From assembly GCA_005240145.1 (NCBI GenBank), contig SBAS01000103.1, positions 1 through 37,964 on the forward strand: DNA of 37,964 bases, read 5' to 3'. A program made the translations under genes and the position numbers. This DNA comes from Nitrosomonadales bacterium. GTDB lineage: Bacteria > Pseudomonadota > Gammaproteobacteria > Burkholderiales > SG8-39. Below are positions 4,181 to 37,964 of this stretch, one piece after another. Every line of letters begins with the position of its first letter. Position 1 is the stretch's first letter. Under the pieces are notes generated by a model. That model was given only the letters and a program-made list of their open reading frames with translations. It searched no databases and was not told the origin of the DNA.

Positions 4181-4182
4181 GA

Positions 4183-5426: not shown

Positions 5427-5434
5427 TCTGCGAA

Positions 5435-5455: not shown

Positions 5456-5512
5456 GGCGCAACGCTGCGGATCAGTCTGGGCCCTGGAGCATGCTGGCGG
5501 TATGATTCAGAC

Positions 5513-7149: not shown

Positions 7150-7158
7150 TCCGGCATC

Positions 7159-7762: not shown

Positions 7763-7766
<4 letters not shown>
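7458..7766 (+). CDS. ureB: Urease beta subunit UreB
   Basis: Middle structural subunit, 102 residues, the normal size when beta is a separate chain. MIPGEM start, then [20 protein letters not shown] and [17 protein letters not shown], all typical. Overlaps ureA by four bases upstream and the ureC GTG by four bases downstream, so the three structural genes should be translated in step. Bases 7505-7570 are AT-richer than the surroundings. Confidence 0.97.
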
Positions 7767-9460
<1,694 letters not shown>

Positions 9461-9475
9461 GGATTTTTATTCTTC

Positions 9476-10021: not shown

Positions 10022-10644
10022 GCCTGGCGAAGCTCTTGCAGCTTGCCAGTCCCACGCTTCCCGTAGGCGCCTACAGCTATTCCGGAGGCCTCGAGGCGGC
10101 GATTGAAGCCGGCACCGTGCACGACGCCGCAAGCGCCGAGCGCTGGATTGGCGATGTATTGGAGTTTTCGGTGGCCCGAATGGATGCCCCGATTCTTTTG
10201 CGCATGATGTCCGATCAAAAAGACTGGAATGAAACCTATCTGGCCAGCCGGGAAACGGCGGAACTGCGTGCCGAGACGGTGCAAATGGGCTATTCGCTGA
10301 ACCGGTTGCTGAAGGACCTGGGGATGGGAGAAGTGCCGGTGAGCGAGCCTTCCTTTCCCGCGGCGTTCGCTTATGCCGCGACGCAATGGAAGATCGAACC
10401 CGAGGCCGCGCTGCAGGCCTACCTCTGGTCCTGGCTCGAGAACCAGGTCATGGCAGCGGTGAAAACGGTGCCGCTCGGCCAGACCGATGGTCAGAAGATC
10501 CTCCTGTCATTGGGAAATGGTTTGAATGTACTTGTAGAAAAAATAAAAAAAATGCAAGACGATGACATTGGTAATTTCGCTCCTGGACTGGTGTTGATGT
10601 CGGCACGCCACGAGACCCAGTACAGCAGGCTGTTCCGCTCATGA
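10018..10644 (+). CDS. ureF: Urease accessory protein UreF
   Basis: Accessory protein that couples the UreG GTPase to the UreD-urease complex; all helical, 208 residues. [22 protein letters not shown] near the start is the family signature; [24 protein letters not shown] lies near residue 140. Overlaps ureE and ureG by four bases each. Bases 10490-10560, coding a Lys-rich segment, are distinctly AT-rich. Confidence 0.95.
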
Positions 10645-17377: not shown

Positions 17378-18100
17378 ATGGAGCTTTTTGACCTGAAAGG
17401 CAAAACGGCCCTCGTCACGGGCGCGGCCAACGGCATCGGCAAGGCGACGGCGGACCTGCTGGAGAAGGCCGGCGCCGCGGTGGCGCGGATCGATATCAAT
17501 GCCGCGCCGGGCGTCATTTCCGCCGACGTCGCGGACGAACAGGCGATGGAAAAGGCCTTCAAGAAGGTCGGCGCCGTCGACATCCTGGTCAACAACGCCG
17601 GCATCGCGGTGCGCAAAAACGCGCTCGACATCACGCGCGAGGACTGGGACCGGGTAATGGCCGTCAACGTCTCGGGCCTGTTCCTTTGCTCGCGCATTGC
17701 CGCGCGAGGCATGAAGGAAATTGGCAAGGACGGGTTGCCCCGTGGCGGCTCGATCGTCAATCTCGCCTCCATCATGGGATTTTCCGGTGGCCTGTTTCCC
17801 AATCCGGCCTACCAGGCCTCGAAAGGGGCGGTGGTGAACCTCACGCGCGCGCTGGCGCTGGAATTTGCCGAGCACAAGATTCGCGTCAATGCCGTGGCGC
17901 CGACCTTCGTGCGCACGCCGCTTACTTCGCCGGTGTTCAGCAACCCCGAGGTGCTGCGGAAAGTCATGGAGCACACCCCGCTCGGCGTGCTGCCGGAAGT
18001 GGAGGACATCGCCGCCGCGATTCTGTTTCTCGCCAGTCCGGCGGCGCGCTGCATCACCGGCGTCACGCTGCCGGTGGATTCAGGCTACCTCGCGCGCTAG
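17378..18100 (+). CDS. SDR family oxidoreductase
   Basis: 240-residue classical short-chain dehydrogenase. Cofactor motif TGAANGIG at 14-21, NNAG at 72-75, catalytic Ser131, Tyr145 and Lys149 (YQASK), and the C-terminal PVDSGYLAR typical of the FabG-like group. Uses NAD(P)H to oxidise or reduce an alcohol/ketone; substrate unknown. Divergent from the amidohydrolase pair and followed by the separately promoted ArsR gene. Confidence 0.9.
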   Translation: MELFDLKGKTALVTGAANGIGKATADLLEKAGAAVARIDINAAPGVISADVADEQAMEKAFKKVGAVDILVNNAGIAVRKNALDITREDWDRVMAVNVSGLFLCSRIAARGMKEIGKDGLPRGGSIVNLASIMGFSGGLFPNPAYQASKGAVVNLTRALALEFAEHKIRVNAVAPTFVRTPLTSPVFSNPEVLRKVMEHTPLGVLPEVEDIAAAILFLASPAARCITGVTLPVDSGYLAR

Positions 18101-24105: not shown

Positions 24106-24960
24106 ATGCGTGTAGCGCTCGTCGGCGCGGTCCTGTGGCTCTGGGTCGCGGAGTGCGTTGCGCAATCGCCGCTCCCGTCGGTGGAGCGGTGCGGCGAAGT
24201 CGTGGTCGTCGAGACGCATGGCCGCAGCACCATGCGCTACGCGTACCTGCCCCCAGCCGCCGCGGGCGTTCAGGGCGGCCCGATCACGCTCGCCTTGCTC
24301 CCGGGAGGCGGTGGCTTTGTCGACCTGGACGGGCGTGGCTGCGCCCGCCAGCTGACGGGCAACTCTCTCGTACGGTCGATACCAGCATTCGCCGCTGCCG
24401 GATTCGGCGTCGCGCTGCTCGACGCGCCTTCCGACCATCAGGGTGAAGACGGGCTGGGAGGATTCCGCGCCGCGCCCGAGCACGCGCAGGATCTCGGCAA
24501 GCTGATCGCGGGCTTGCGGGAGCGCACGCGCGGCGCAGTGTGGCTGGTCGGCACGAGCCGCGGTTCGATATCCGCGGCGAACGCGGCAGCACGCCTCTCG
24601 GGCCCCGCCGCGCCCGACGGACTCGTGCTCACCTCGGCGCTAATGACGGGGCAACGCGCGAGGAAGGATTGGGTGGCGCAGACGGTGTTTGATATTCCCC
24701 TCGAGGCAATCCGCATACCGGCGCTGGTGGTCGGACACGCCGCCGACGTGTGCCTGCGCTCGCCGCCGGGCCGCATGGCTGAAATCGCGGCGCGGACGCG
24801 CGGCGCCCGCCAGCAACTGGTCACGGTGACCGGCGGCCCCGCCTACGCGGGCGCGCCGGGCATCAGCGCCTGCGAGGGGAGAGCGCCGCACGGATTTGCG
24901 GACCAGGAGGCCGAAGTCGCTGCCGGCATCGCGCGCTTCGTGCGCGGCGGCAACTATTAG
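24106..24960 (+). CDS. Secreted alpha/beta hydrolase
   Basis: 284 residues with a likely signal peptide (residues 1-20, ending AECVAQ). Nucleophile elbow GTSRGS with Ser151, oxyanion-type LLPGGGGFVDLDG near 65-77, an Asp near VVGHAADVC and a His near RAPHGF that could complete the triad. Probably a periplasmic esterase or peptidase-like hydrolase; substrate unknown. Its last four bases overlap the stop of the convergent ghrA-like gene. Confidence 0.78.
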   Translation: MRVALVGAVLWLWVAECVAQSPLPSVERCGEVVVVETHGRSTMRYAYLPPAAAGVQGGPITLALLPGGGGFVDLDGRGCARQLTGNSLVRSIPAFAAAGFGVALLDAPSDHQGEDGLGGFRAAPEHAQDLGKLIAGLRERTRGAVWLVGTSRGSISAANAAARLSGPAAPDGLVLTSALMTGQRARKDWVAQTVFDIPLEAIRIPALVVGHAADVCLRSPPGRMAEIAARTRGARQQLVTVTGGPAYAGAPGISACEGRAPHGFADQEAEVAAGIARFVRGGNY

Positions 24961-25874
24961 TAGCCTGCGGCGAAATCCACAGTGTTGAGCGGCTTCTCGC
25001 CGCGCCGCACGCGCTCGATGTTCTCCGCCACTTTGCCGACCGAGGTACGCGGTTCGGTGAGCGCGGCGATGTGCGGCGTGAGCGTGATGCCCGGATGCGA
25101 CCAGAGCGGGCTGTCGGCCGGCAGTGGCTCGGTTTCGAATACGTCGAGGTAGGCGTGGGCGAGGTGGCCCGAGTCCAGCGCGGCGAGCAGGTCCGCCGCC
25201 ACGACATGTCCGCCGCGCGCCATGTTGATGAGGCAGCCGTCCTTGGGAATCAAAGCGAGGATTCTTGCATTGACGATTCCTCGGGTTTTATCGGTCAAAG
25301 GAAGAAGGCATACAAGAGCATCACTGCGCCGGACTACGTCCTCCAAGTCCGTCGAGCAGTACACGCCGTCGAGCTGCTTCGGCCTGCGGCTCCAGCCGGC
25401 GACGTTGAAATTCATCGCCAGCAGCTTCGCCGCGATGGTGCCGCCCAGCTCGCCCAGCCCGAGAATGCCGATGGTCCGGTCCGAAGCAAGGTACTGCCGG
25501 CGGCGCTTCCAGGTTTTTTGATTCTGAAAAGATCTATAACAATAAAAATGACGATGCCAATCCAGGACATAGGCGATCACCGTCTCGCCCATCGCCGCGA
25601 CCATGCCGGGATCGATCAGGCGCGCCACCGGCACGCCGCGCGGCAGTTCGGTGTCGCCGACGATGTTCTCCACGCCCATCCACAGCGACTGGATGAGCCT
25701 GAGTTTGCGCAGGCCGGCGAAAGTGCCCTTGGGGTGGGTCGCCACCAGGGCGATGTCGATATCGCCGCCGTTGATGTCCGGCCAGGCGCAGAAGCGGTCG
25801 GCGGGCAGCGCCTTCTGCAGCAGGGGAAACCAGAACTCCGGCTTCTCCTTCGTCGATGCAAATAGAATGTTCAA
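24957..25874 (-). CDS. ghrA: Glyoxylate/hydroxypyruvate reductase A-like D-2-hydroxyacid dehydrogenase
   Basis: 305 residues from TTG 25874, giving MNILFASTKEKPEFWFPLLQ, close to the GhrA N-terminus; no ATG upstream fits. IQSLWMGVENIV near 61-72, Rossmann GILGLGELGGTIA at 136-148, catalytic Arg in INMARGGHVV, Glu in VFETEPLPADSPLW, His in LTPHIAALTEP. Reduces glyoxylate or hydroxypyruvate with NAD(P)H. The start lies 11 bases after the stop of the Bug receptor gene, so they are co-transcribed. Bases 25510-25560, coding a Gln/Lys/Arg-rich stretch, are AT-rich. Confidence 0.87.
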   Translation of the reverse strand: MNILFASTKEKPEFWFPLLQKALPADRFCAWPDINGGDIDIALVATHPKGTFAGLRKLRLIQSLWMGVENIVGDTELPRGVPVARLIDPGMVAAMGETVIAYVLDWHRHFYCYRSFQNQKTWKRRRQYLASDRTIGILGLGELGGTIAAKLLAMNFNVAGWSRRPKQLDGVYCSTDLEDVVRRSDALVCLLPLTDKTRGIVNARILALIPKDGCLINMARGGHVVAADLLAALDSGHLAHAYLDVFETEPLPADSPLWSHPGITLTPHIAALTEPRTSVGKVAENIERVRRGEKPLNTVDFAAGY

Positions 25875-25885
25875 GGCGCGAACGT

Positions 25886-26836
25886 TCAGTTTGCGAGCTT
25901 GAAGCCGGAGGCCTTGATCACCGGGCCCCACTTGTCGTAGTCCGACTTGTGGATGCGCGCGAGCGCAGCCGGCCCGAGGCCGGTGGGTTCCATGCCGAGC
26001 GCCTCGAGCTTTTCGCGCACGTCGGGCGACTTGATCGCCTCGACGATCGCGCTCGCCAGCCTGTCGACTGTTTCCGGCGGCGTCTTCGCCGGCGCATAGG
26101 CCGCGTACCACCCGCTGCCTTCGATGTTGAAGCCGAGCTCGCGAAAGGTAGGAACTTCCGGGAGTTCCCTCGCGCGCCGTGCGCCGGAGGTCGCGAGCAC
26201 GCGCAGCCGGCCCGCCTTGTGCTGGGTGGCGACGTCGGAAGCCGTGCCAATGAACGCCGCAATCTGCCCGCCGAGCAGGTCTGTAAGGGCGGGCGCGGTG
26301 CCTTTGTAAGCGATATGGTTCAGGGAAATGCCTGCCGTATCGGCGAACAGCAGCGAGAAGAAGTGCGGCAGGCTGCCGGCCCCGGCAGAAGCATAGTTGC
26401 CGAACTTCACGTCCCGCTTGACCAGGCTGACGTAGTCCGCGAGCGAGCTGGCCGGCACAGCAGGGCCGACGCCGAACGCAAAAAGGAAATTCGCCGTATG
26501 CGCCACCGGCGTGAAATCGGCGAACGCGTCGTAGGGCAGCTTCGCGAACACCTGCGGCGCAGTTACCACAGTGACTAAAGGGGTCATGACCAGCGTGAGG
26601 CCGTCGGCGGGCGCCGCCTTCAGCGCGCTCATGGCGATCTGCCCCGCGGCGCCGGGGCGGTTCTCCACCACCACCGGCTGGCCGAGGCGAACGCGCATCT
26701 TTTCCGCGACCAGCCGCGTCATCGTGTCGAGGCCGGCGCCGGCGGGAAACCCGACCAGGAACCTGACGGTTTTTTCCTGCGCCGCCGCGGGCAGTGCGAA
26801 CGAAAGCGCAAGCAGCAGCACTGACATTCTGGACAT
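25886..26836 (-). CDS. Tripartite tricarboxylate transporter (Bug/TctC) solute receptor
   Basis: 316 residues with a clear signal peptide (MSRMSVLLLALSFALPAAAQ). VRFLVGFPAGAGLDTMTRL near 25, VVVENRPGAAGQIAMSAL near 57, and NHIAYKGTAPALTDLLGGQIAAFIG near 170 are the Bug family marks. Binds small carboxylates in the periplasm; TctAB membrane genes are not nearby, as is common for the many orphan Bug proteins of Burkholderiales. Divergent from the dioxygenase gene. Confidence 0.93.
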   Translation of the reverse strand: MSRMSVLLLALSFALPAAAQEKTVRFLVGFPAGAGLDTMTRLVAEKMRVRLGQPVVVENRPGAAGQIAMSALKAAPADGLTLVMTPLVTVVTAPQVFAKLPYDAFADFTPVAHTANFLFAFGVGPAVPASSLADYVSLVKRDVKFGNYASAGAGSLPHFFSLLFADTAGISLNHIAYKGTAPALTDLLGGQIAAFIGTASDVATQHKAGRLRVLATSGARRARELPEVPTFRELGFNIEGSGWYAAYAPAKTPPETVDRLASAIVEAIKSPDVREKLEALGMEPTGLGPAALARIHKSDYDKWGPVIKASGFKLAN

Positions 26837-26890: not shown

Positions 26891-27727
26891 ATGGCGATCC
26901 GCAGGTTCAGCGAGAAGAAACTCACTGCCGAGGTGCTGCACCGCATCCGCAAGACGAAAAACCGGCGGCTCAAGCAGGTGATGACCGCGTACATCAAGCA
27001 CCTGCACGCTTTCGTGCGCGAGGTGAAGCCGACGCCGGAGGAATGGATGCAGGGCATCCAGTTCCTCACCGAGACCGGGCACTGGTCCACGGACAAGCGC
27101 CAGGAATTCATCCTCATGTCGGACACGCTGGGCGTGTCGATGCTGGTGGATGCGCTCAACTACAAGGCGAGCGGCGGCGCCACGCAGTCGACCGTGCTCG
27201 GGCCGTTCCACCGCGAGAATTCGCCCGAATTCGCACTCGGCGCGAACGTCGCAAAGAATCCCGCCGACGGCGAAACCTGCGTCATCTCGGGCACAGTGCG
27301 CGACACGGCGGGGCGCGCGGTCGCGGGGGCGAAGCTCGATATCTGGGAAGGCGGCGCCGACGGCCTTTACGACTCGCAGAAGGGCGACGAGATGAATCTG
27401 CGCGGCGTTTTCAGGACCGATGGCAAAGGCCGCTTCCATTTCCGCTGCGTGGTGCCCACCTTCTACCCGGTGCCGAACGACGGGCCGGTCGGCAAGATGC
27501 TGGTCGCCACCGGGCGCCACCCGATGCGGCCGCCGCACCTGCACTTCTGGATCACCGCGCCGGGCTACCGGCCGCTCATCACGCATCTGTTCCGCAAGGG
27601 CGGCAAGTACCTGGATTCGGATGCGGTGTTCGGCGTCAAGCCAGAGCTGATCGTCGATTTTAAGAAAGGCCGGGACGGCGTCGTCACAGCGAGCTATGAT
27701 TTCGTGCTGATGAAGGAAAAAAAGTGA
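26891..27727 (+). CDS. Intradiol ring-cleavage dioxygenase (hydroxyquinol/catechol 1,2-dioxygenase-like)
   Basis: 278 residues from ATG 26891, which has gggagga at 26878-26884; an ATG at 26840 in frame has no ribosome site and adds no conserved sequence. The N-terminal helical domain (residues 1-105) is the dimerisation domain of catechol-type enzymes. Ferric-iron ligands Tyr160 (GLYDSQ), Tyr192 (FYPVPNDGP), His216 and His218 (RPPHLHFW) are all present. Cleaves a catechol or hydroxyquinol between the two hydroxyls to a muconate. Sits between two Bug receptors; the next gene overlaps its stop by four bases. Confidence 0.92.
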   Translation: MAIRRFSEKKLTAEVLHRIRKTKNRRLKQVMTAYIKHLHAFVREVKPTPEEWMQGIQFLTETGHWSTDKRQEFILMSDTLGVSMLVDALNYKASGGATQSTVLGPFHRENSPEFALGANVAKNPADGETCVISGTVRDTAGRAVAGAKLDIWEGGADGLYDSQKGDEMNLRGVFRTDGKGRFHFRCVVPTFYPVPNDGPVGKMLVATGRHPMRPPHLHFWITAPGYRPLITHLFRKGGKYLDSDAVFGVKPELIVDFKKGRDGVVTASYDFVLMKEKK

Positions 27728-28704: not shown

Positions 28705-28959
28705 CTAGCCGGCGCGCGCCGCCTTTGCGCGCGTCCGTGCTGAGCGCCCGGTTATGCGTGATGCCTGCTTGCCGGGCGAGAGCAAACCGGCCAACGCATC
28801 GTTTACCGCTTGCGATGTTGGGAAAGCCTTTGCGTTCCTCGGCGAAAGGAGTACGACGGAAGAGCCTTTCGAGACCTCCGCGTAGAACTTGCCGCGTTCC
28901 AGGCGAGTAAAGTCCGAGCGCTTGTATTCGGACCGCATTTCGTCTTTAGCCTTCTTCAT
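28705..28959 (-). CDS. Probable antitoxin partner of BrnT
   Basis: 84 residues, Lys/Arg/Ser-rich: MKKAKDEMRSEYKRSDFTRL then RGKFYAEVSKGSSVVLLSP and NDALAGLL. It overlaps the BrnT gene by 14 bases and follows it, the standard BrnT-BrnA order. The DEMRSEYKRSDF start resembles BrnA-like proteins, but the RHH region usual at the BrnA C-terminus is not obvious; instead the tail is basic (SARTRAKAARAG). Identity as antitoxin rests mainly on position. Confidence 0.65.
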   Translation of the reverse strand: MKKAKDEMRSEYKRSDFTRLERGKFYAEVSKGSSVVLLSPRNAKAFPTSQAVNDALAGLLSPGKQASRITGRSARTRAKAARAG

Positions 28960-29218
28960 ATAGTTTCCTCTCGCCGCGCGTCATGCGGCGTGCGCTGAAA
29001 ATGCGAATAGTACCGGGTCGGTGAGTATGGTGGATTGCGAGTGGCCGGCCAAGGCTGGACTGACCAAAAGTGATGAACCGATTTTCGCCGACGGAGTGAT
29101 CGGGGTCTGGGCCGGATACGGCTAGGGGGTCATGGAAGACCGAGGCGCTTTCATCGAACGAGACCCCGTGCTTTCGTAGATTGGCCTCCGCCTTCCGCGG
29201 GTCCCATTCAAACTTCAT
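28946..29218 (-). CDS. brnT: BrnT family toxin
   Basis: 90 residues, full length. MKFEWDPRKAEANLRKHGVSFDES at the start and RIFSARRMTRGERKLYEE at the end are the family signature: a RelE-like fold ribonuclease neutralised by BrnA. Catalytic basic residues in the ARRMTRGER helix/strand are present. Third toxin-antitoxin locus of the window, all three from different families. Confidence 0.9.
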   Translation of the reverse strand: MKFEWDPRKAEANLRKHGVSFDESASVFHDPLAVSGPDPDHSVGENRFITFGQSSLGRPLAIHHTHRPGTIRIFSARRMTRGERKLYEEG

Positions 29219-29421: not shown

Positions 29422-30591
29422 TCAGCCGCGAATTTCCGCGCTCTCCAGCGTTACCTTTTCGAGCTTGGTCAGGTCGAGCGTTACACCGAGTCCGGGTCCG
29501 GCGGGGAGCCGCATCGCACCGTCTTTGACTTCCTGAGGTTCGGCCAGCACGTCGGAGGAAAGAAAGTGCAGGCCGGAGTCGTTCGGGTACTCGACTTCCG
29601 GGAGCGCCGAGGCAAGGTGCAGATTGGCCACGGTGGCGATGCCGGTTTCGTAGACGCTGTGCAGCGCGGGCTTGAGGCCGTAGGCGTGCGCGACGCGCGC
29701 CATGCGGCGCCAGGCGTCGATGCCGCCCCACATGAACAGGTCTCCAAGCACCACGTCCACCGCCTGCCTGCGGATCGCGGGCACGAGGTGCTCGTCCTTC
29801 ACCACCCACATGTTGGTGGCGACGGGGGTTTTCACCGCGGCCTTGAGGCGCGCGATGCCTTCGAGTTCGCCCGTCGGGTCCTCGAAGAATTCCAGTCCGA
29901 GCGAGTCGAGCCGGCGGCAAAGTTCGGTGGCGGTGGCCGCACCGTAGTTGGCGTTCGGATCGAAGCGGATGCGCGCCTGTGGCATGGCTTCGCGCAGTTC
30001 GTTGAGCAGCTTCCAGTCCCACTCGGGCGAATAGGCGGCGCTTTTCAGCTTGAAGGAGCGGAAACCGGACTTGCGCTGCTGGTCCAGTGCGAACTGCACG
30101 ACGAGCTTCGTGTTGGCGAGCACATCAAGGTGATCCGTCAGTTCCTTGCGCGATACGGCCCTGGGCAGGATCGCGGCGGGCAGGGTGGAGACGACGTCGA
30201 TGGATTCACGCTTGCGGGCACCGATCAATTCGGCGAGCGACATTTTCAGGGACCGCGCGACCGCGTCCCAGGCCGCGAGGTCGAGGCCGGCGAGGGCCGC
30301 GAGGCCGTTGCGGCCGAAGCGGTTGTCATAGGTGGACTTGCCGAGCACTTCGCGCAGGGCGAAGCGGTCCAGCGCGTCCTTGCCCAGCCAGTCCTTCGCA
30401 AAGCGCTGCGCCAGTGCATAGGCGTCCGGCGTGCCCCAGGTCTCGCCCAGGCCGGTGACGCCGTTTTCGAGTCTGAGCTCGATCACGGTGCGTTCGGTTT
30501 TCTCGATCACATACATCGACCCCGCATGGACCATCGTGAGCGGGATCGATACGCGCGTGAGGTGTATCGAGGTTATATCTAGCTTTGCCAC
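29422..30591 (-). CDS. Enolase-superfamily enzyme, glucarate dehydratase-like
   Basis: 389 residues from GTG 30591 (MAKLDITSIHLTRVSIPLTM). Capping domain to about 130, then the barrel: Lys181 and Lys183 in FKLKS, Asp211 (RFDPNAN), Glu237 (FFEDP), Asn260 (ATNMWV), Asp284 (VLGDLFMWGG), His311 (ALHSVYETG). The KxK, D, E, N and D-H dyad pattern is that of the glucarate dehydratase/mandelate racemase branch, which abstracts the proton alpha to a carboxylate. Specific substrate unknown; an acid-sugar dehydratase or muconate-type lactonising role are alternatives. The start overlaps the half-length paralogue's stop by 13 bases. Confidence 0.88.
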   Translation of the reverse strand: MAKLDITSIHLTRVSIPLTMVHAGSMYVIEKTERTVIELRLENGVTGLGETWGTPDAYALAQRFAKDWLGKDALDRFALREVLGKSTYDNRFGRNGLAALAGLDLAAWDAVARSLKMSLAELIGARKRESIDVVSTLPAAILPRAVSRKELTDHLDVLANTKLVVQFALDQQRKSGFRSFKLKSAAYSPEWDWKLLNELREAMPQARIRFDPNANYGAATATELCRRLDSLGLEFFEDPTGELEGIARLKAAVKTPVATNMWVVKDEHLVPAIRRQAVDVVLGDLFMWGGIDAWRRMARVAHAYGLKPALHSVYETGIATVANLHLASALPEVEYPNDSGLHFLSSDVLAEPQEVKDGAMRLPAGPGLGVTLDLTKLEKVTLESAEIRG

Positions 30592-31175
30592 TGGATGTTG
30601 CTGAACGAGGTTTCCAGCGACCAGTCGATTCCTATGCCTTTTTCTTTGGATATTTGAATTAAAGACATTGAAGGCACGGAACGAACAATTATTCTTGTGT
30701 CTTCTCCCTTGAGCGTCGCCGAGAGGGCGGCGCAATACTGGATCTCCCAGGGATGCGCGTTCGGCGCAAGGAGGGCGATGCTCAGGTCGAAAGCATTGGC
30801 GACGGCGGCAATGGTCTGCACCATCTCCACCGATCCCCAGGCGAAAGGATCGATGCGCAGGAGTTCGTGGCGGCCTTCGAGGATGTCCTTGCGCAGCGCC
30901 GTCCAGTCCGGGGGAATCGCGGGCTGTTCATCCTTCACTGCCCTCACTTCTTTTCTGTACGAACCGCCAAGCAGGCTGAATAGCGGCACCCCCTTGGCGC
31001 GCGCCAGCAGGTCCCAGGCGGCCATGTCGCGGGCGACGCCGGCGTCCAGGTTCAGGGTGAAGCCGAATCCCGTGCTCCCGTCCGGCGCCCGGACGCGCGC
31101 CACCAGCGCCTCGTCGCCCGAGGCGACGCGCAGCGAATGCACGTGCGTATGCGCGATCGGAACCGGGGCGGCCAT
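30579..31175 (-). CDS. Half-length enolase-superfamily-like protein lacking catalytic strands
   Basis: 198 residues. Residues 1-75 resemble the enolase capping domain, ending RDMAAWDLLARAKGVPLFSLLGG, the cap-to-barrel junction typical of the superfamily. Residues about 100-150 (LLRIDPFAWGSVEMVQTIAA followed by VANAFDLSIALLAPNAHPWE) resemble the last barrel units, and GIGIDWSLE looks like the normal C-terminal tail. The segment that normally holds KxK and the D/E/E metal ligands (about 150 residues) is absent, so it cannot be a normal enolase-family enzyme. The frame is clean and coupled to the full-length partner by a 13-base overlap. Bases 30590-30715 are AT-rich. Confidence 0.7.
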   Translation of the reverse strand: MAAPVPIAHTHVHSLRVASGDEALVARVRAPDGSTGFGFTLNLDAGVARDMAAWDLLARAKGVPLFSLLGGSYRKEVRAVKDEQPAIPPDWTALRKDILEGRHELLRIDPFAWGSVEMVQTIAAVANAFDLSIALLAPNAHPWEIQYCAALSATLKGEDTRIIVRSVPSMSLIQISKEKGIGIDWSLETSFSNIQWQS

Positions 31176-31195
31176 GTCAGCTCAGCGCCAGACCG

Positions 31196-32281
31196 TCATT
31201 TCCATACTTCACTCGCCACCTCGACGATGCGCTCCAACTTGCGCCACTGCTCGTCCGCGGTGAGGCTGTTGCCATGATGCGTGCTGGAGAAGCCGCACTG
31301 CGGCGACAGGCAGAGGTCCTCAAGGGGAACGAACTTCGATGCTTCCTTGATTTTCCCGATCAGGAATTCCTTTGATTCGAGTTCCGGAGTTTTCGAAGTC
31401 ACGATGCCCAGTACCACCTTTTTCCCCCTGGGCAGGTGGCGCAGCGGCTCGAAGCCGCCCGCGCGCTCGGAATCGAACTCCATGAAGAAGGCGTCCACCG
31501 CCGAGGAGAACATCGCCTCGGCGACCGATTCGTAGCCGCCGGAGGCGACCCAGCTGCTCTTGAAGTTGCCGCGGCAGGTGTGCATGGTCACCGTCATGCC
31601 GGCGGGCCGGTCCTTGAGCGCTTCGCTGATGGCGTTGGCATAGGTGCGCGGCAGCCTGGCGGGGTCGTCGCCGTTCCTGCGGCTGGTTTGCCGGATTTTC
31701 GGGTCGCACAGGTACGAGAAGCTCACATCGTCGAGCTGCAGGTAGGTGCAGCCGGCAGCGGCGAACTGCCGGATGGCCTTGGCATAGGCCGCGGCGGCGT
31801 CGGCCCAGAATTCGGCCAGGTCCGGATACACCGTCTCCGAGATGGAGCTGCGCCCGCCGCGCAGGTGGAGCATGGCGGGCGAGGGGATTGTCAGCTTCGC
31901 TGTCTTTTTAGTATTTTCCTTTAAAAACAGAAAATCACTGACAAAAATAGGCTTCGAACAGTCGATCTTCCCGGTCACGGACGGAATCGGCGGCTGCTCC
32001 TCGGTGCCGCCGAACTTCGGACCCGGATTGGCCACGGCGGTGACGCCGTCGAGCTGCGTCATGAAGTCCAGGTGCCACCAGTCGCGGCGAAATTCGCCGT
32101 CGGTGACCGCCTGCAGGCCGATCGACTCCTGTCTGGCAACGGCCTCCTTGATGCAACGATCCTCGATTGCTTTCAGGGAAGGAAGGTCCAGTTCCTTGTT
32201 CCTGTACTGCGCCCTAGCATCGGCAAGCTCCCTCGGCCGCAGCAGGCTGCCGACCTGGTCGGCGCGAAACGGAGGTTTCAT
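31196..32281 (-). CDS. MetE C-terminal domain-like (B12-independent) methyltransferase
   Basis: 361 residues corresponding to the catalytic C-terminal barrel of cobalamin-independent methionine synthase. Zinc ligands His234 and Cys236 (MTMHTCRGN) and Cys329 (LSPQCGFSS) are kept; DGEFRRDWWHLDF near 61, YLQLDDVSFSYLCDP near 180 and EFDSERAGGFEPL near 268 match the YxjG/MetE-like branch. The N-terminal folate-binding repeat of MetE is missing. It may transfer a methyl group between a small substrate and a thiol or folate. The start overlaps the HMG-CoA-lyase-like stop. Bases 31901-31960 are only about 28 percent G+C (17 of 60). Confidence 0.85.
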   Translation of the reverse strand: MKPPFRADQVGSLLRPRELADARAQYRNKELDLPSLKAIEDRCIKEAVARQESIGLQAVTDGEFRRDWWHLDFMTQLDGVTAVANPGPKFGGTEEQPPIPSVTGKIDCSKPIFVSDFLFLKENTKKTAKLTIPSPAMLHLRGGRSSISETVYPDLAEFWADAAAAYAKAIRQFAAAGCTYLQLDDVSFSYLCDPKIRQTSRRNGDDPARLPRTYANAISEALKDRPAGMTVTMHTCRGNFKSSWVASGGYESVAEAMFSSAVDAFFMEFDSERAGGFEPLRHLPRGKKVVLGIVTSKTPELESKEFLIGKIKEASKFVPLEDLCLSPQCGFSSTHHGNSLTADEQWRKLERIVEVASEVWK

Positions 32282-33195
32282 TCGAGTGGGTTGAGGCCGC
32301 TGCGGGTCACGCGGCCGTGCAGCTCACGGCCAAGCGCCTGCTCGCACGACTCCGCGGTGGCGAGCAGCTGGTCCAAGTCTATCCCGGTGGCGATGCCCAT
32401 GGACTCGAACAGGCCTACCAGATCCTCGGTGCACACGTTGCCGGTGTGGCCGCCGCCGTACTTCACTTTGGCCGGATGGCCGCCGACCCCGCCGAACGAG
32501 GAATCGAAGTGGCGCACGCCCGCCTCGTAGGCGGCGACGTAGTTCGCGAGGCCCGTGCCGCGCGAGTCGTGAAAATGGGCGATCGGAACGAGAGACGGGG
32601 TATTTTGAACTTTCTTGAAAAAAGCTCTTACCGTAAGTGGAGTGGCCATGCCGGTGGTGTCCCCGACAGCGACATGATGAATACCTAACTGGGAAAACCG
32701 CAAAACGTCTTCCGCAACGGATCCTGGGTCCACCTTGCCCTCGAAAGGGCAGCCGAAGGCGACCGAGACGGTGCCGACCAGCCTGAAGCGCCCGCCCGCC
32801 GCGCGCACCATCTCTTCGATGTTGGCCCACTGTTCGGCGCGCGTGCGTCTTAGGTTCTTCTGTGTATGGGATTCGGTGGCGGAAACCAGCAGGCTGATCT
32901 CATTCACGCCGAAGCCTGCGTCGAGGTCGGCCAGGGCCCTTTGCACTGCCTTCGGATTTGCACAGGTTGCCTTGTAGTGTGTATTTGATTTTCTTTTCAG
33001 TGATTTTAGAAGTTCACTCGCATCGGAGAACTGAGGAACTACCTTGGGGTTTGAATAGGAAGTCGCTTCGACGCGGGGGAAACCGATGGCGGCGAAGCGC
33101 TCGACCAGGGCGCGCTTGGCGGCGGTCGGGATGAAGGCCGGTTCGTGCTGCAGCCCGTCGCGGGCGAAGCATTCGCACAGCGTGACCATGGACAT
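32278..33195 (-). CDS. HMG-CoA lyase-like (HMGL/DRE-TIM) aldolase
   Basis: 305 residues from ATG 33195 (MSMVTLCECFARDGLQHEP); ATGs at 33207 and 33189 are also possible. RDGLQ at 12-16, metal-binding HFHD at 207-210 (IAHFHDSRGTGLAN) and a Gly loop GGVGGHP at 235-241 then GNVCTED mark the HMG-CoA lyase family. The loop has His where true HMG-CoA lyases have their catalytic Cys (GGCP), so the substrate may differ. Stop overlaps the MetE-like start by four bases; first gene of the minus-strand operon. AT-rich patches lie at 32590-32710 and 32860-33055. Confidence 0.85.
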   Translation of the reverse strand: MSMVTLCECFARDGLQHEPAFIPTAAKRALVERFAAIGFPRVEATSYSNPKVVPQFSDASELLKSLKRKSNTHYKATCANPKAVQRALADLDAGFGVNEISLLVSATESHTQKNLRRTRAEQWANIEEMVRAAGGRFRLVGTVSVAFGCPFEGKVDPGSVAEDVLRFSQLGIHHVAVGDTTGMATPLTVRAFFKKVQNTPSLVPIAHFHDSRGTGLANYVAAYEAGVRHFDSSFGGVGGHPAKVKYGGGHTGNVCTEDLVGLFESMGIATGIDLDQLLATAESCEQALGRELHGRVTRSGLNPLE

Positions 33196-33197
33196 AG

Positions 33198-33231
33198 TTG
33201 ACAGCATCAACCAACTGCGCGATGCTGTCAA
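33198..33231. promoter_or_regulatory. Divergent operator/promoter: 11-bp inverted repeat
   Basis: Perfect inverted repeat ttgacagcatc (33198-33208) and gatgctgtcaa (33221-33231), 12-base spacer, in the gap between the HMGL-like and pcaH-like starts. Each arm carries TTGACA reading toward the gene on its far side, so the two arms may double as -35 boxes of divergent promoters. The MarR-type regulator encoded at 34503 is the obvious candidate to bind here; inference. Confidence 0.55.
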
Positions 33232-33237
33232 TCGCCC

Positions 33238-33936
33238 ATGAAGACGGTCATCGACCCGCGCGACGAGCGCACCCAGCCGGCGCGCATCGTGCCCGGCTAC
33301 CCGCAGACGCCCCTGCGCAATCCGCGCGAGCCCCTCATCCGGCGGCCGCCCACCCTCTCGGAGCTGAGCGGCCCGCTGGAGGTGGCGCGGCGCGTCAGGG
33401 TCCTGGGTGGCGACATCGCCGGCCAGGGCGAAAAGCAGGCCATCGGGCAGCTGATCCACCTCAGGGTGCGCGTGCTCGACGAGGACGGCGCGCCGGTCGG
33501 CGGCACGGTGGTCGAGATGTGGCAGGCCAATGGCGCCGGGCGCTACATCCACCCCAACGACGACGATCACGCGCCGCCGGACCCGAATTTCTACGGCGCG
33601 GCGCGACTGGTTACCGACGAGAACGGGCAGTTCGAACTGCGCACGGTGAAGCCCGGCGCCTATCCGGTGCCGACCCGGGACGGCTGGTGGCGCCCGCCGC
33701 ACGTCCATTTCTCGCTCTTCGGCAAGGTCTGGCTGTCGCGCCTGGTGACGCAGATGTACTTTCCGGGCGAGCCGCTGAACGCGCAGGACCGGATCCTGAA
33801 CGCGGTGCCCGACACCGTGGCGCGCGAACGGCTGGTGGCGCAGCTCGTGCCGCCCTCGGCACAACCGCACAACGCGCTCGTCTATGAACACCGGATCGTG
33901 CTGCGCGGGCGCACTGCGACTCCGGAGCAGTCCTGA
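33238..33936 (+). CDS. pcaH: Protocatechuate 3,4-dioxygenase beta subunit-like (PcaH)
   Basis: 232 residues. Iron ligands of the beta subunit are conserved: Tyr103 (AGRYIHPND), Tyr142 (PGAYPVP), His155 and His157 (RPPHVHFSLF), after the N-terminal RNPREPLIRRPPTLSELSGP that is typical of PcaH. Catalytic partner of the following PcaG-like subunit; cleaves a dihydroxybenzoate between the hydroxyls. Usual neighbours pcaB, pcaC and pcaD are absent, so the natural substrate may not be protocatechuate. ATG at 33238 is seven bases after the inverted repeat. Confidence 0.87.
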   Translation: MKTVIDPRDERTQPARIVPGYPQTPLRNPREPLIRRPPTLSELSGPLEVARRVRVLGGDIAGQGEKQAIGQLIHLRVRVLDEDGAPVGGTVVEMWQANGAGRYIHPNDDDHAPPDPNFYGAARLVTDENGQFELRTVKPGAYPVPTRDGWWRPPHVHFSLFGKVWLSRLVTQMYFPGEPLNAQDRILNAVPDTVARERLVAQLVPPSAQPHNALVYEHRIVLRGRTATPEQS

Positions 33937-33955
33937 TGTTGACGCCGGAGCAGCA

Positions 33956-34510
33956 TTGAAGCGTACGGCGATGATCCCCACGGGCGAAGCGACCATCGGG
34001 CCGTTTTTCCCGCCGCGCTACGTCGATGCGGGCGCGAACGACCTCACGCTGTTCGAGGGCCGCAAGGCGAAGGGCGAGGCCATCGAGATTCGCGGCCGCG
34101 TGCTGCAGGAGGACGGCGCTGCGCTGGAAAACCTGGTGCTCGAGATCTGGCAGACCGATGCGAAGGGCATCTACCGCCACCCCGCCGATCCGCGCCACGC
34201 GCAGGCCGACGCGGATTTTCTCGGCTGGGGCCGGACCGTGACCGACGCCGGGGGTGAATACGTTTTCCGCACCATCAGGCCCGGCGCAACCGAAGGCCGC
34301 GCGCCGCACATCAATTTCATGGTCATGTATTCGGGCCTGATGCGGATACTGAAAACGACGATGTATTTCACGCATGAGATGGATGTTGTTCTATCGGCTG
34401 TTCCCGTTTCACGTCGTGAACTTCTAATAGCGAAAAAACAAGGTCCTGACGGTTATCGTTTCGATATCCGCTTGCGCGGCGAGAACGAGACGCCGTTCTT
34501 CGATGACTAG
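33956..34510 (+). CDS. pcaG: Protocatechuate 3,4-dioxygenase alpha subunit-like (PcaG)
   Basis: 184 residues from TTG 33956, which has ggag five bases before it; ATG 33971 (MIPTGEATIGPFFPPRYVD) is a close alternative. The ATIGPFF start, EIWQTDAKGIYRHPADP in the middle and APHINFMVMYSGLM with the single His of the alpha subunit mark PcaG, which shapes the active site but lacks the iron ligands. 20 bases after the pcaH-like stop; its last eight bases overlap marR. Bases 34375-34450 form an AT-rich patch. Confidence 0.83.
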   Translation: MKRTAMIPTGEATIGPFFPPRYVDAGANDLTLFEGRKAKGEAIEIRGRVLQEDGAALENLVLEIWQTDAKGIYRHPADPRHAQADADFLGWGRTVTDAGGEYVFRTIRPGATEGRAPHINFMVMYSGLMRILKTTMYFTHEMDVVLSAVPVSRRELLIAKKQGPDGYRFDIRLRGENETPFFDD

Positions 34511-35024
34511 GCCGACCATACGCGAGCTGCTGTCCTACCGCCTGCACCGGGTGGCGAACCTGCTCTCGCGCGGCGCCGAGATGCGCTACCGGCGCGAGTT
34601 CGGCGTCAGCCTGTGGGAATGGCGCACGGTGGCATTGCTGGGCGGCGCGACTGAACCGCAGTCGCTCAACGACCTCGCGCGCGCCGCGGGCATGGACAAG
34701 GGGCAGATGAGCCGGGTGGTATCAGGCCTGACCGCGCGGAAGATCGTTTGCCGCGAGACCGATGCCAACGACGCGCGGGGGATCCGGCTCTCCCTGACCG
34801 CATCCGGCGGGAAGCTGTACCGGAAACTGATTAAGGCGGCTGCCGAGCGCAACAGCGCCTTCCTCGGCTGCCTCAGCGCGAAGGAGCGGGTGTGCCTTGA
34901 GCAGGCAATGACCAAGCTCGCGCACGAGGCGCGCGGCTTCATCCAGGCTGAGAAGCAGAAAAAGGGGGTCAGACCCCAATTTCCTGCTCGTCCAGGCGAA
35001 AGTCGGAGGGAAATTGGGGTCTGA
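34503..35024 (+). CDS. MarR-family transcriptional regulator with repeat-derived C-terminus
   Basis: 173 residues. Winged helix at about 45-95 (LARAAGMDKGQMSRVVSGL followed by TARKIVCRETDANDARGIRLSL), flanked by N- and C-terminal dimerisation helices. The family normally ends near AHEARGFIQAEKQ, about residue 151. The last 22 residues (KGVRPQFPARPGESRREIGV) are encoded by the inserted hairpin element at 34957-35036 and end at its TGA. It probably regulates the divergent operons via 33198-33231. Overlaps the enoyl-CoA hydratase start by 11 bases. Confidence 0.85.
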   Translation: MTRPTIRELLSYRLHRVANLLSRGAEMRYRREFGVSLWEWRTVALLGGATEPQSLNDLARAAGMDKGQMSRVVSGLTARKIVCRETDANDARGIRLSLTASGGKLYRKLIKAAAERNSAFLGCLSAKERVCLEQAMTKLAHEARGFIQAEKQKKGVRPQFPARPGESRREIGV

Positions 35025-35036
35025 CCCTCTTTTTCT
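34957..35036. repeat. 80-bp hairpin repeat (REP-like, ggggtcagacccc type)
   Basis: Left arm 34957-34984 and right arm 35009-35036 are inverted copies, 27 of 28 bases matching, around a 24-base loop. Each arm carries the core gggtcagacccc followed by aattt and is bounded by runs of A or T, so the DNA would fold as a long hairpin and could act as a terminator as well. This type of palindrome is a dispersed REP-like repeat in many proteobacteria (from memory; not verified here). It contains the last codons of marR and the ribosome site and TTG start of the next gene. Confidence 0.82.
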
Positions 35037-35751
35037 CCTGACGGAAGACCGCGGCGCGGTGCGGATCCTGACCATGAACCGGCCGGAGAAGCGCAACGCG
35101 CTGAACACGGCCTTGACGCGTGCGCTGCTCGATGCTCTGCGCGCCGCCGATGCCGCCGATTCCGTCGCGGCAGTGGTCCTGACCGGCGCCGGGCAGGGGT
35201 TCTGCGCCGGAGCGGACCTGGCGGAGTTCAAGGACCTGACGCCGGAAAAGCAGCACCTGGTGGAAGAACGCGCCGAACTCACGATGCAACTGCACCTGGC
35301 ATTCCCGAAGATGGCCAAACCCGTGGTGACGGCGATCAACGGCGCCGCGATGGGTGGCGGCGCCGGTCTCGCGATTGCTGCCGACCTGGCGCTGATGGCG
35401 CAAGGCGCGCAACTCGGCTACCCGGAGACGCGCCACGGCATCGTCGCCGCCATCGTGATGGCGAACCTGGTTCGACAGACCGGCCGCAAGCGCGCCTTCG
35501 AGCTGGTTTCCCTGGGCGAACCCATAACCTCACGGCAGGCGCTGGAGTACGGACTGGTCAACCGCGTCGTGCCGGATGCTGACCTGCTGGCTGAGTCTTT
35601 TTTGCTTGCTGAAAGGCTTTCCAGGATCAGGAAAGAAGGATTGACAGAAACAAAAAAACTTTTCCATCAGGTCGCCGACCTGCCGCTGGAGGAAGCGCTC
35701 AGGCAAGGGCGGGAACTGAACAAGCGCATGCGCGCTTTCGGCAAGAGGTAG
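35014..35751 (+). CDS. Enoyl-CoA hydratase/isomerase family protein
   Basis: 245 residues from TTG 35014, preceded by ggaggg at 35005-35010; both lie in the hairpin repeat. The first seven residues (MGSDPLF) are repeat-derived; recognised sequence begins near LTEDRGAVRILTMNRPEKRNALN. Oxyanion-hole segments GQGFCAGADL near 58 and NGAAMGGGAGLAIAADLAL near 110, and the catalytic-region Glu in LGYPETRHGIVA near 134. Acts on an enoyl-CoA intermediate. Six bases precede the EamA gene. Bases 35590-35670 are AT-rich. Confidence 0.88.
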   Translation: MGSDPLFLLTEDRGAVRILTMNRPEKRNALNTALTRALLDALRAADAADSVAAVVLTGAGQGFCAGADLAEFKDLTPEKQHLVEERAELTMQLHLAFPKMAKPVVTAINGAAMGGGAGLAIAADLALMAQGAQLGYPETRHGIVAAIVMANLVRQTGRKRAFELVSLGEPITSRQALEYGLVNRVVPDADLLAESFLLAERLSRIRKEGLTETKKLFHQVADLPLEEALRQGRELNKRMRAFGKR

Positions 35752-35757
35752 GGATGC

Positions 35758-36654
35758 ATGGGCGTCACCTACGCGCTGCTGGCAATGGTCTTCTTTGCCG
35801 CCAACATCGTCATTACGCGCTACGCGCTCGCGCGCCTGCCGGTGGAGGCGGGATTCTTCATCGTGCTGGCGACCAACATCCTCTTTCCCTCGGCGCTGTT
35901 CGCTGTGGAAGTGACGTTACGCGCCGCGCCCTGGGCCTGGGACTGGAGTGGGGCGGGAATGTTCGCGCTTGCCGGCGTGATCGGGACCTTCCTCGGCCGC
36001 CGCATGCTGTTCGACACGGTGCGCCTGCTCGGCCCGTCGCGCGCGAGCGTATTCCATTCGACGGCGCCGGCATTCGCGCTGGTGGCGGCCTGGCTTCTGG
36101 CCGACGAGCTGCTCGGCCTTTACGAACTGGCCCTGATGGCGGTCGTGTGGCTGGGATTGTGGTTCACGCAGCCGCGGGCGGGGACCGCCGCGGGAGTCAT
36201 CCCGCTCTCCCCGGCCAACGTGCGCCGTGGATTGATCGTCGGGGTATTTACGGTCGCGGGCTTCGGCTTCGGCAATGTGCTGCGCGGCCTTGCCATGCGC
36301 GGCTGGGACGAGGCGGTTTTCGGCACGCTCCTCTCCGCATTGGCCGCGCTCGTCTGCCAGGTGATCGCAACCCGCGACTGGCGGAAAATCGGCGCGCTGC
36401 TGCGGGGCGCGGAGCGCAATACCGTGTGGCTGTATATCGGCTGCGGCGTGTTCACGTCGCTTGGCTCCATCTTCGTCGCCTTGGCGATGAACCACATCGA
36501 GATCGCGCTCGCGGTGCTGGTGGTGCACACCACGCCGCTGGTGATTTTTCCGGTGAGCGTCTTCATCCTGAAGAACAGGGAGGAACTCACCCCGCGAACG
36601 CTCATTGGCGCACTTCTGGTTCTTTCAGGCATTTCCCTCCTGGCGTTCAGGTAA
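35758..36654 (+). CDS. EamA/DMT family transporter
   Basis: 298 residues, about ten hydrophobic segments in two repeats (first half ends near residue 140, second begins around RRGLIVGVFTVAGFGFG). AMNHIEIALAVLVVHTTPLVIFPVSV near the end is the conserved EamA C-terminal pattern. Inner-membrane metabolite exporter or importer; substrate unknown. ATG 35758 follows the hydratase stop by six bases. Confidence 0.9.
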   Translation: MGVTYALLAMVFFAANIVITRYALARLPVEAGFFIVLATNILFPSALFAVEVTLRAAPWAWDWSGAGMFALAGVIGTFLGRRMLFDTVRLLGPSRASVFHSTAPAFALVAAWLLADELLGLYELALMAVVWLGLWFTQPRAGTAAGVIPLSPANVRRGLIVGVFTVAGFGFGNVLRGLAMRGWDEAVFGTLLSALAALVCQVIATRDWRKIGALLRGAERNTVWLYIGCGVFTSLGSIFVALAMNHIEIALAVLVVHTTPLVIFPVSVFILKNREELTPRTLIGALLVLSGISLLAFR

Positions 36655-36664
36655 GACCCGATCG

Positions 36665-37843
36665 ATGAAACCGCTCCAGCACCTGACGATCCTCGATCTG
36701 TCGCGCGTGCTGGCCTGTCCGTTCGCGAGCATGATCCTGGCCGAACTCGGCGCGACCGTGATCAAGGTCGAGCAGCCCGGCGCCGGCGACGAGACGCGCG
36801 GCTTCGAGCCGCAACTCGCGCGCGACAGCGCCTACTTCTTCGCCTGCAACCGCTCCAAGGCCTCGATCACCGTCAACCTGCGCTCGGCGGAGGGGCAGGA
36901 CATCATTCGCGAGCTGGCGCAGAAGGTGGATGTGCTGGTGGAGAACTTTCCGGCCGGAACCCTGGCCCGCTACGGTCTCGATTTCAGCATGCTCTCGACG
37001 CTGAACCCGAAGCTGGTCTATGTCTCCTGCACCGGATTCGGCCAGAGCGGGCCGTATGCGCACAAGAAGGGCTACGACACCGTGTTCCAGGCGATGGGCG
37101 GCCTCATGAGCCTCACCGGCGAAAAGGACGGCGGACCCGTGAAGCCGGGGCTGCCGATCGCCGATCTTACTTCGGGGCTGTGGGTGGCGATCGGGATCCT
37201 GGCGATGCTCGCGGGGCGCGAGAAGACGGGCCGCGGCGCGCACCTGGATTTTTCCATGCTCGATGGCCAGGTTTCCTTGCTGACCCTGGCCGCGGCACGC
37301 TACTTCGCGCTGGGCGAAGTGCCGCCTCGCCTGGGAACCGAGCATCCCGGGCGCGTGCCCTCGGCGACGTTCCGCTGCAAGGACGGCAAGTTCGCCCACA
37401 TCACCGCCAGCGACCAGCACTGGGAACCGCTGTGCAGGGTGTTGGGATTTGGTGAATGGGGTTTGGGTTTTACTTCAAATGCGTTAAGAGTTCAAAAGCG
37501 AAAAGAAGTAATGCGAAAGCTCACGGAAGCGATTGCAGGCATTGAACGGGCAGAGCTGCTCAAGATGCTCGATGCAGTTGACGTCCCCATCGGGCCGGTA
37601 AACGACGTCGCCGAAATACTGTCCGATCCGCATGTGCGCGCGCGCGGGCTGGTCGGCAGCTTCGACTACGCCGGCGTGGGCGAATTCAAGGCGCTCGCGC
37701 TGCCTTACAAGTTCCTCGGCTGGGACAACCCTGATATTGGGCCGCCGCCCGCGCTTGGGGAGGATACCGAGACCATCCTCGCCGAAAGACTGGGGTACTC
37801 AAACGACAAGATCGCGCGGCTGAAAGCGGTGAAGGCGATATGA
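36665..37843 (+). CDS. CaiB/BaiF CoA-transferase family protein
   Basis: 392 residues, full length for family III CoA-transferases. LSRVLACPFASMILAELGATVIKVE near the N-terminus, SCTGFGQSGPYAHKKGYDTVFQAMGG near 121-146, catalytic Asp167 (GLPIADLTSGL), and VDVPIGPVNDVAEILSDPHVRARG near the end. Transfers CoA from an acyl-CoA to a free acid, probably activating the pathway substrate for the enoyl-CoA hydratases. The stop overlaps the next ATG by four bases. Bases 37441-37520 are about 40 percent G+C (32 of 80). Confidence 0.93.
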   Translation: MKPLQHLTILDLSRVLACPFASMILAELGATVIKVEQPGAGDETRGFEPQLARDSAYFFACNRSKASITVNLRSAEGQDIIRELAQKVDVLVENFPAGTLARYGLDFSMLSTLNPKLVYVSCTGFGQSGPYAHKKGYDTVFQAMGGLMSLTGEKDGGPVKPGLPIADLTSGLWVAIGILAMLAGREKTGRGAHLDFSMLDGQVSLLTLAAARYFALGEVPPRLGTEHPGRVPSATFRCKDGKFAHITASDQHWEPLCRVLGFGEWGLGFTSNALRVQKRKEVMRKLTEAIAGIERAELLKMLDAVDVPIGPVNDVAEILSDPHVRARGLVGSFDYAGVGEFKALALPYKFLGWDNPDIGPPPALGEDTETILAERLGYSNDKIARLKAVKAI

Positions 37844-37964
37844 GCGTCCTCTACTCAGCATCGAACGGCGTGGCGACGCTCACCCTCAACCGCCCGGAAA
37901 GTCGCAACGCGCTCAACCTGGACATGTGCGATCGACTCATTTCGATTTCACGGGAACTTCAATC
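37840..37964 (+). CDS. Enoyl-CoA hydratase family protein, 5' part only
   Basis: ATG overlaps the CoA-transferase stop. 41 codons are in the window: MSVLYSASNGVATLTLNRP then ESRNALNLDM, the typical first strand and NRPexRNAL motif of enoyl-CoA hydratase/isomerases. The gene runs off the end of the window. It is a second hydratase of the same operon. Confidence 0.85.
   Translation, partial: MSVLYSASNGVATLTLNRPESRNALNLDMCDRLISISRELQ

Follow-up and report, generated by a model that had tools for sequence, protein, structure and literature searches.

A conserved locus associating a PcaHG-like intradiol dioxygenase with CoA-transferase, crotonase and lyase genes in a Nitrosomonadales bacterium: a candidate ring-cleavage route through CoA thioesters

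In leucine and itaconate breakdown, acetyl-CoA is released from a branched unsaturated diacid by CoA transfer, hydration and retro-aldol-type cleavage; for itaconate, the enzymes are a CoA-transferase, a hydratase and citramalyl-CoA lyase. In the protocatechuate branch of the beta-ketoadipate pathway, the intradiol dioxygenase PcaHG is accompanied by PcaB, PcaC, PcaD and PcaIJ. For the 4-sulfocatechol pathway, pcaH2G2-pcaB2-4SLH-MAR clusters are described (PMC5632844). The present analysis concerns a locus that associates a PcaHG-like pair with CoA-transferase, crotonase and lyase genes (hereafter the CoA block) in a stretch of 37,964 bases (hereafter the window) from a Nitrosomonadales bacterium; the window is one whole contig (SBAS01000103.1) and its end is the contig end. 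This gene set is real and conserved, and is not a chance assembly. It consists of known enzyme families in a seemingly new arrangement, whose function is partly inferable; no description of it was found in the open-access papers searched, subscription papers and preprints being mostly outside this search.

Like the protocatechuate branch, the locus encodes a PcaHG-type intradiol enzyme that keeps its iron ligands. However, its PcaH lies under the TIGR02422 cut-off, no pcaB-, pcaC-, pcaD-, pcaI- or pcaJ-like gene was found among the 30 window gene models run against Pfam (a scan that is not exhaustive for the window), and the cluster carries instead a CaiB-type transferase, two crotonases, an acyl-CoA synthetase (ACS, in relatives) and a hydroxymethylglutaryl-CoA (HMG-CoA) lyase-like protein (HMGL). 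With leucine/3-methylglutaconyl-CoA breakdown, it shares a crotonase, a lyase of the HMGL fold and a CaiB relative of HMG/glutarate CoA-transferase, but the loop Cys of the lyase is replaced by His, the lyase is joined to a ring-cleavage enzyme and the window models include no acyl-CoA carboxylase; of the mapped relatives, only L042/L070 have a carboxylase beta subunit. The transferase-hydratase-lyase logic yielding acetyl-CoA is also that of itaconate degradation, whose hydratase and lyase families differ from those of the window. A second, non-canonical PcaHG pair is shared with the 4-sulfocatechol pathway, whereas pcaB2, 4SLH and MAR were not seen here and the CoA block is present instead. 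Finally, a gene similar to hydroxyquinol 1,2-dioxygenase (HQD) lies nearby, as in the hydroxyquinol pathway, but it is loosely linked, and no maleylacetate reductase was found in what was a weak search.

The original prediction of two divergent operons with one common control region was borne out. Reading outward from the control region, the minus strand carries HMGL, then a MetE-like protein, a 198-aa protein and an MR/MLE enolase. The plus strand carries PcaH-like, PcaG-like and MarR, then a first crotonase (ECH), EamA, the CaiB-type CoA transferase and, incomplete, a second crotonase (ECH2). The start codons of HMGL (33186, minus strand) and PcaH (33238, plus strand) are 51 bp apart. The shared control region (33187..33237, not assigned to a strand) includes an inverted repeat with perfect 11-bp arms (33198-33231); three inverted repeats with arms of at least 11 and gaps of at most 20 were found in the window, compared to 0-1 in each of six simulated windows. 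It also includes the palindrome GTTGA-N5-TCAAC at 33197-33211, which has no other exact match in the window; allowing one mismatch, there is one further match compared to 0.44 expected. This palindrome is exactly conserved in all 20 short HMGL-PcaH divergent regions compared, near-duplicate loci included, and also occurs in L063/L183. A scan of the control region for the sigma-70 consensus gave no match. Both hallmarks of a MarR-regulated operon are present, namely a gene for a MarR-family regulator (34503..35024, plus strand; Pfam and gene order of relatives) and a palindrome that relatives keep at the promoter. From the letters of this region, the palindrome can be read as a putative MarR operator, to which MarR would bind, and the locus is probably regulated as a unit.

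The PcaH-like beta subunit (33238..33936, plus strand) scores 235.9 bits with TIGR02422, the equivalog of the protocatechuate 3,4-dioxygenase beta subunit, below the cut-off of 296.4, and the PcaG-like alpha subunit (33884..34510, plus strand, with a start more likely near 33971) scores 144.4 bits with the alpha equivalog TIGR02423, above the cut-off of 126.25. The iron ligands Tyr408, Tyr447, His460 and His462, as well as Arg457, Gln477 and Tyr324, are kept in all 47 aligned PcaH rows (35 distinct sequences; Pseudomonas putida numbering). At the position of Trp449 (149 in an alternative numbering), the window protein has Val, and each of the 47 rows has Val, Ala or Thr. This substitution was considered as a mark of the PcaH variant and dropped, since Val is shared by three of six other PcaH-like rows and the change is thus not diagnostic.

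The CaiB-type (family III) CoA transferase (36668..37843, plus strand) matches PF02515 over its full length (383.6 bits, positions 1-366 of 366), and its closest solved structure is a succinate-hydroxymethylglutarate CoA-transferase, presumably the human enzyme. Two enoyl-CoA hydratases had been predicted and both are present, although the second is cut by the contig end from 37840. ECH (35014..35751, plus strand; GGGAG and YPE motifs) is a crotonase with a single catalytic Glu: in 28/28 rows, the first of the two catalytic positions of rat crotonase is Gly and the second is Glu. ECH2 (37840..37964, plus strand, start only; ACS is the next gene in relatives) has Glu at both in 29/29 rows. HMGL (32278..33186, minus strand) scores 247.3 bits with PRK05692 (cut-off 246) and its best structural match is 6nds (37% identity, TM 0.87). 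It has the HMG-CoA lyase fold and keeps the Arg/Asp, Glu, His-x-His and Asn catalytic residues. The catalytic loop Cys of the human enzyme is Cys266. In the GGHP loop of HMGL, which is poorly ordered in the structure model, His replaces this Cys in 26/26 aligned rows (18 distinct) and in 11/11 further loci. In several relatives, a nitronate-monooxygenase/FabK-like gene (NMO) lies between MarR and ECH, replacing or joining EamA; the NMO of L172 scores 292.9 bits with FabK, below the cut-off of 453.1. The identities initially proposed for the PcaH/PcaG-like, MetE-like, HMGL-like, CaiB, MarR, EamA and enoyl-CoA hydratase proteins all agree with the Pfam and NCBIfam scores.

The comparison of loci was based on 80 loci, retained out of 116, from a PcaH scan of named genome contigs and on 98 genomes of the family; several row counts include near-duplicate loci (one contig fetched twice). 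In closer relatives, the genes run PcaH-PcaG-MarR-(NMO and/or EamA)-ECH-CaiB-ECH2-ACS, and HMGL points the other way, followed in part of them by MetE, the 198-aa gene and the enolase. The more divergent clusters L165, L166, L168, L169, L171 and L172 keep PcaHG, ECH, CaiB, ECH2, ACS and HMGL, the latter lying at the opposite end of the cluster in L165, L166 and L169. L042/L070 keep PcaHG, CaiB, ECH, ECH2, ACS, MetE and HQD, and no HMGL was found in their genome at 1e-90. The scattered gene order among relatives that the original prediction named as refuting it was looked for and not found, the order PcaH-PcaG-MarR-ECH-CaiB-ECH2-ACS being recurrent. The alphaproteobacterial loci L068, L069 and L073-L076 and the Gemmatimonadetes locus L077 carry PcaHG-like genes without a CaiB-ECH2-ACS run, with HMGL (55%), ECH (50%) and NMO (56%) matches nearby in L074. 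In a phylum-wide sample, HMGL was found at 1e-95 in only two of 398 genomes, including the genome of the window.

Co-occurrence was counted in the 98 family genomes (given below as both, first only, second only, neither) with cut-offs of about 235 bits or more for the PcaH variant, 1e-90 for HMGL, 1e-85 for HQD and 1e-130 for CaiB, the first being set with the match list in view and the three others after earlier lists of the same proteins. The PcaH variant is strongly associated with CaiB (26, 1, 6, 65; Fisher p = 5.9e-17) and with HMGL (24, 3, 3, 68; p = 1.7e-16), and HMGL with CaiB gives 23, 4, 9, 62. HQD gives 19, 8, 9, 62 with the PcaH variant (PcaH first), 17, 10, 11, 60 with HMGL (HMGL first) and 19, 9, 13, 57 with CaiB (HQD first). 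Among the 41 better genomes (at least 90% completeness and at most 5% contamination), the values are 18, 1, 0, 22 for PcaH variant/CaiB, 17, 2, 2, 20 for PcaH variant/HMGL and 13, 6, 6, 16 for PcaH variant/HQD. Furthermore, PcaHG and HMGL co-occur in G376, G377, G378 and G380 although they lie on different contigs.

Taken as a whole, these data lead us to propose tentatively, as a plausible reading, that this is a MarR-controlled catabolic locus in which an intradiol ring opener feeds a CoA-transferase/hydratase/lyase sequence that releases acetyl-CoA. The substrate, every intermediate and the order of the steps are what we infer. Intradiol cleavage of a 4-substituted catechol by the PcaHG-like enzyme would yield a 3-substituted muconate. 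The CaiB-type transferase would load CoA onto this product, the one-Glu crotonase ECH would hydrate it at the branched carbon, and acetyl-CoA would then be split off by the HMGL-like lyase, leaving an oxo acid. ACS and the two-Glu crotonase ECH2, with the FabK-like reductase in many relatives, would handle the remaining unsaturated half. With a carboxymethyl substituent (homoprotocatechuate), the oxo acid would be maleylacetate, and with a carboxyl substituent (protocatechuate), oxoglutaconate. By analogy, the logic would be that of 3-methylglutaconyl-CoA/HMG-CoA or itaconate breakdown applied to a ring-cleavage product. The enzyme classes are most naturally read as a route through CoA thioesters, as originally suggested; the data speak neither for nor against the methylated dihydroxybenzoate that was guessed at the same time, the MetE-like gene being outside the core. 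Protocatechuate, homoprotocatechuate, gallate, hydroxyquinol or methoxyhydroquinone, and also hydroxycinnamate conjugates, glutarate and tricarballylate-like acids, were weighed as candidate substrates, and none was singled out. Should the CoA block really process the PcaHG product, textbook ortho-cleavage would gain an alternative ending, and a group of genes annotated today as hydroxymethylglutaryl-CoA lyase, CoA transferase or protocatechuate dioxygenase subunit would be misnamed.

Several observations weigh against the proposed ring-cleavage route. Firstly, the HMGL-like protein lacks the loop Cys of human HMG-CoA lyase, and an NMO ortholog is missing from the genome of the window (which has only a 37% relative) and is present in only three of 13 genus genomes. 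Secondly, the palindrome was not found in L065/L181, nor, with at most one mismatch, near the cluster genes of L165, L166, L169, L042, L173 and L174. Thirdly, G059, G348 and G379 have the PcaH variant but no HMGL match at 1e-90, and the Fisher values ignore shared ancestry, because of which they are inflated: with genera as units, the PcaH variant/HMGL association is reduced to 8, 1, 2, 15 (p = 2.3e-4).

The distribution of the CoA block on plasmids also weighs against this route. Among 72,556 plasmid records, the 11 best HMGL matches (57-72% identity, the next being 41%) and the 11 best CaiB matches (52-65%, the next being 44%) come from the same 11 records. Ten of these records, from Alpha- and Betaproteobacteria and Rhodococcus, were read, that of Shinella WSD5-1 being left out. 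HMGL, ECH, CaiB, ECH2, ACS and NMO are present in all 10 stretches (those of L185 being partly matched in separate pieces), but none of the stretches has any PcaH or PcaG match; in the Cupriavidus campinensis record, a PcaH-like match (49%) lies about 1 Mb from the block. The palindrome (with at most one mismatch) lies upstream of HMGL or MarR in seven stretches (L187, L189, L190, L191, L192, L196 and L198) and was not found near these genes in L185, L186 and L188. In Bosea, Shinella and Gemmobacter, the neighbors of the block are of amine type (aminotransferase, ABC transporter, SSADH-like dehydrogenase), which implies that the substrate of the block need not be a ring-cleavage product. A histone-deacetylase-family gene is found beside the block in Bosea and Shinella and a GMC oxidoreductase in Shinella and Gemmobacter, whereas other transporters are found instead in Paracoccaceae strain La 6; in Rhodococcus opacus, the block is accompanied by MarR and by genes read as a transporter and an alpha/beta hydrolase.

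The recurrence of the block on plasmids without PcaHG, which is the main doubt about the proposed route, shows that it is portable, with PcaHG as one upstream partner among several; its input may therefore be ring-derived only in the lineage of the window, or may be another part of the same compound. The fuller version of the proposed route, in which the muconate product is not lactonised but dismantled as CoA thioesters by a set including a new His-loop lyase, one half yielding acetyl-CoA and the other an oxo acid, and in which the block is portable, common to Pseudomonadota and Rhodococcus, with its own MarR operator and served by various upstream routes, is possible, though we hold it with more reserve than its general outline. 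As the gene set is small and the block occurs in isolates (Cupriavidus, Bosea, Shinella, Sinorhizobium and Rhodococcus), it is directly testable.

In another explanation, a plant-type conjugate (such as a hydroxycinnamate amide or ester, or another branched acid) is divided between the two enzyme sets: the CoA block degrades an acyl or side-chain portion of it, and PcaHG cleaves only the liberated catechol. The substrate of the block would then be the same in plasmid hosts devoid of PcaHG. The transporter, hydrolase and regulator genes beside the block of R. opacus, the amine-type and deacetylase-family neighbors described above and the similar putative operator at plasmid blocks are in its favor. 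However, no hydroxycinnamoyl-CoA hydratase-lyase model was found for the ECH2 of L037 among the best 25 of 33 families, and the pairing of the PcaH variant with CaiB is so tight in the better genomes that it suggests a direct link between them. We consider this explanation unlikely.

The neighboring HQD gene suggests that hydroxyquinol-type rings could be the actual input, with HQD as the main ring opener, the MetE-like protein removing methyl groups, PcaHG having a side activity and maleylacetate-type acids passing through the block. HQD (26894..27727, plus strand), a second intradiol enzyme whose nearest solved structure is a hydroxyquinol 1,2-dioxygenase, was found at 1e-40 in 12 of 13 genus genomes (G355 having only a 38% match), and it recurs beside MetE and HMGL in L244, L245, L249 and L252. 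Nevertheless, it is the least linked gene in the counts given above, its association with HMGL reaches only p = 0.06 in the better genomes, and the fetched stretches of the core clusters L165, L168, L171 and L172 contain neither HQD nor MetE. Maleylacetate reductase was detected in none of the 13 genus genomes, with a single divergent query, an iron alcohol dehydrogenase of L168 that is itself not a firm maleylacetate reductase; this protein was unmatched at 1e-40, in a search that had no positive control. It was also examined as a lead in its own right and rejected, its NCBIfam matches above 1e-30 being other iron alcohol dehydrogenases and the lead not being general. A hydroxyquinol-type input appears improbable.

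We find it at least equally improbable that canonical beta-ketoadipate enzymes act in trans on the product of the PcaHG-like pair while HMGL, CaiB and ECH degrade another compound of the same habitat. The absence of standard pcaBCDIJ genes reported in the original prediction holds for the window models scanned and does not extend to the genome: a separate locus carries another PcaHG pair (46% and 39%) with PcaB-like and PobA-like proteins named by sequence reading, and other contigs carry two PcaI-family genes and PcaD (259.9 bits, cut-off 255.85). These canonical genes, which make the window cluster a second intradiol system, could take up the PcaHG product and thus count against the proposed CoA-thioester route as well. 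On the other hand, only one of the 11 genomes that have only other PcaH-like genes carries HMGL, and only three carry CaiB (HQD is also found in three), and PcaHG and the block form a single divergent unit that shares the palindrome.

A pathway of the 4-sulfocatechol type (type II PcaH2G2) was considered because the PcaHG pair is non-canonical, as in the clusters described above, but no PcaB2-, sulfomuconolactone-hydrolase- or MAR-like gene was found among the window models scanned, so that it is disfavored and very improbable. That unrelated neighbors were brought together by chance, as the coming and going of the accessory genes MLE, MetE, EamA and NMO could suggest, is refuted for the core by its gene order and co-occurrence.

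Around this core, the conserved island is larger than originally delimited, HQD, a 2-hydroxyacid dehydrogenase and a Bug receptor recurring in part of the relatives. The MetE-like protein (31196..32281, minus strand) consists of the C-terminal catalytic domain only and scores 453 bits with PRK06520 (cut-off 313); its motifs MHTCRGN (21/22 rows) and PQCGF (22/22) are what we take to be the MetE zinc site. Counting paralogs, 40 of 300 genomes from the order have such a protein at 1e-60. Methyl transfer lies outside the core, as the gene is missing from the fetched stretches of the core clusters L165, L168, L171 and L172 and from all 10 plasmid stretches. The enolase pair initially described is reduced to one full MR/MLE enolase-superfamily protein (29422..30582, minus strand). 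Its supposed partner, the conserved 198-aa protein (30579..31175, minus strand), has a weak likeness to the enolase N-terminal domain, covering 29 positions of the MR_MLE N-terminal model with a score exactly at the cut-off; it has no match to the barrel domain PF13378 in the Pfam scan, and its best NCBIfam match covers 66 residues (31.1 bits). Its relatives (17 rows, 10 distinct) keep their own invariant motifs (HVHS, DPFAWG and APN.HPWE), and therefore it was not counted as a second enolase; with a pLDDT of 60, its model is too uncertain for a structure search. An EamA transporter (35758..36654, plus strand; Pfam) completes the plus-strand operon.

Other intradiol clusters were noticed during the comparison. 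L197, from a Paracoccus marcusii plasmid, carries a PcaHG-like pair (PcaH 52%) with CaiB, PcaF, carboxymuconolactone decarboxylase, fumarase and GST genes, and a sulfatase and a SulP transporter nearby; it is another non-canonical intradiol cluster. The alphaproteobacterial L073, L075 and L076 and L077, from a Gemmatimonadetes metagenome-assembled genome, have MLE-PcaH-PcaG clusters with a gene read as RraA/CHA-aldolase-like, and the first three also with amidohydrolase and Rieske-like genes; judging from these readings, such clusters might encode an intradiol gallate-type route to oxalomesaconate. A gene read as a UbiD-like decarboxylase lies near a divergent PcaHG pair in L072, L173, L175 and L177, L072 and L175 being the same contig.

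Upstream of the locus, a TctC-family solute receptor (Bug1, 25886..26836, minus strand) and a GhrA-like D-2-hydroxyacid dehydrogenase (24957..25883, minus strand) lie beside HQD, as in some relatives. An amidohydrolase (15675..17357, minus strand) and a short-chain dehydrogenase (17378..18100, plus strand) are adjacent here as in L039, L041 and L249, with a weak link to the locus. Within 28705-29218, a BrnT-family toxin gene (28946-29218) and an adjoining small ORF lie between the HQD and PcaHG parts. At positions 680-10644 of the window, ABC transporter genes of the branched-chain type precede urease genes (UreD, alpha subunit and UreF).

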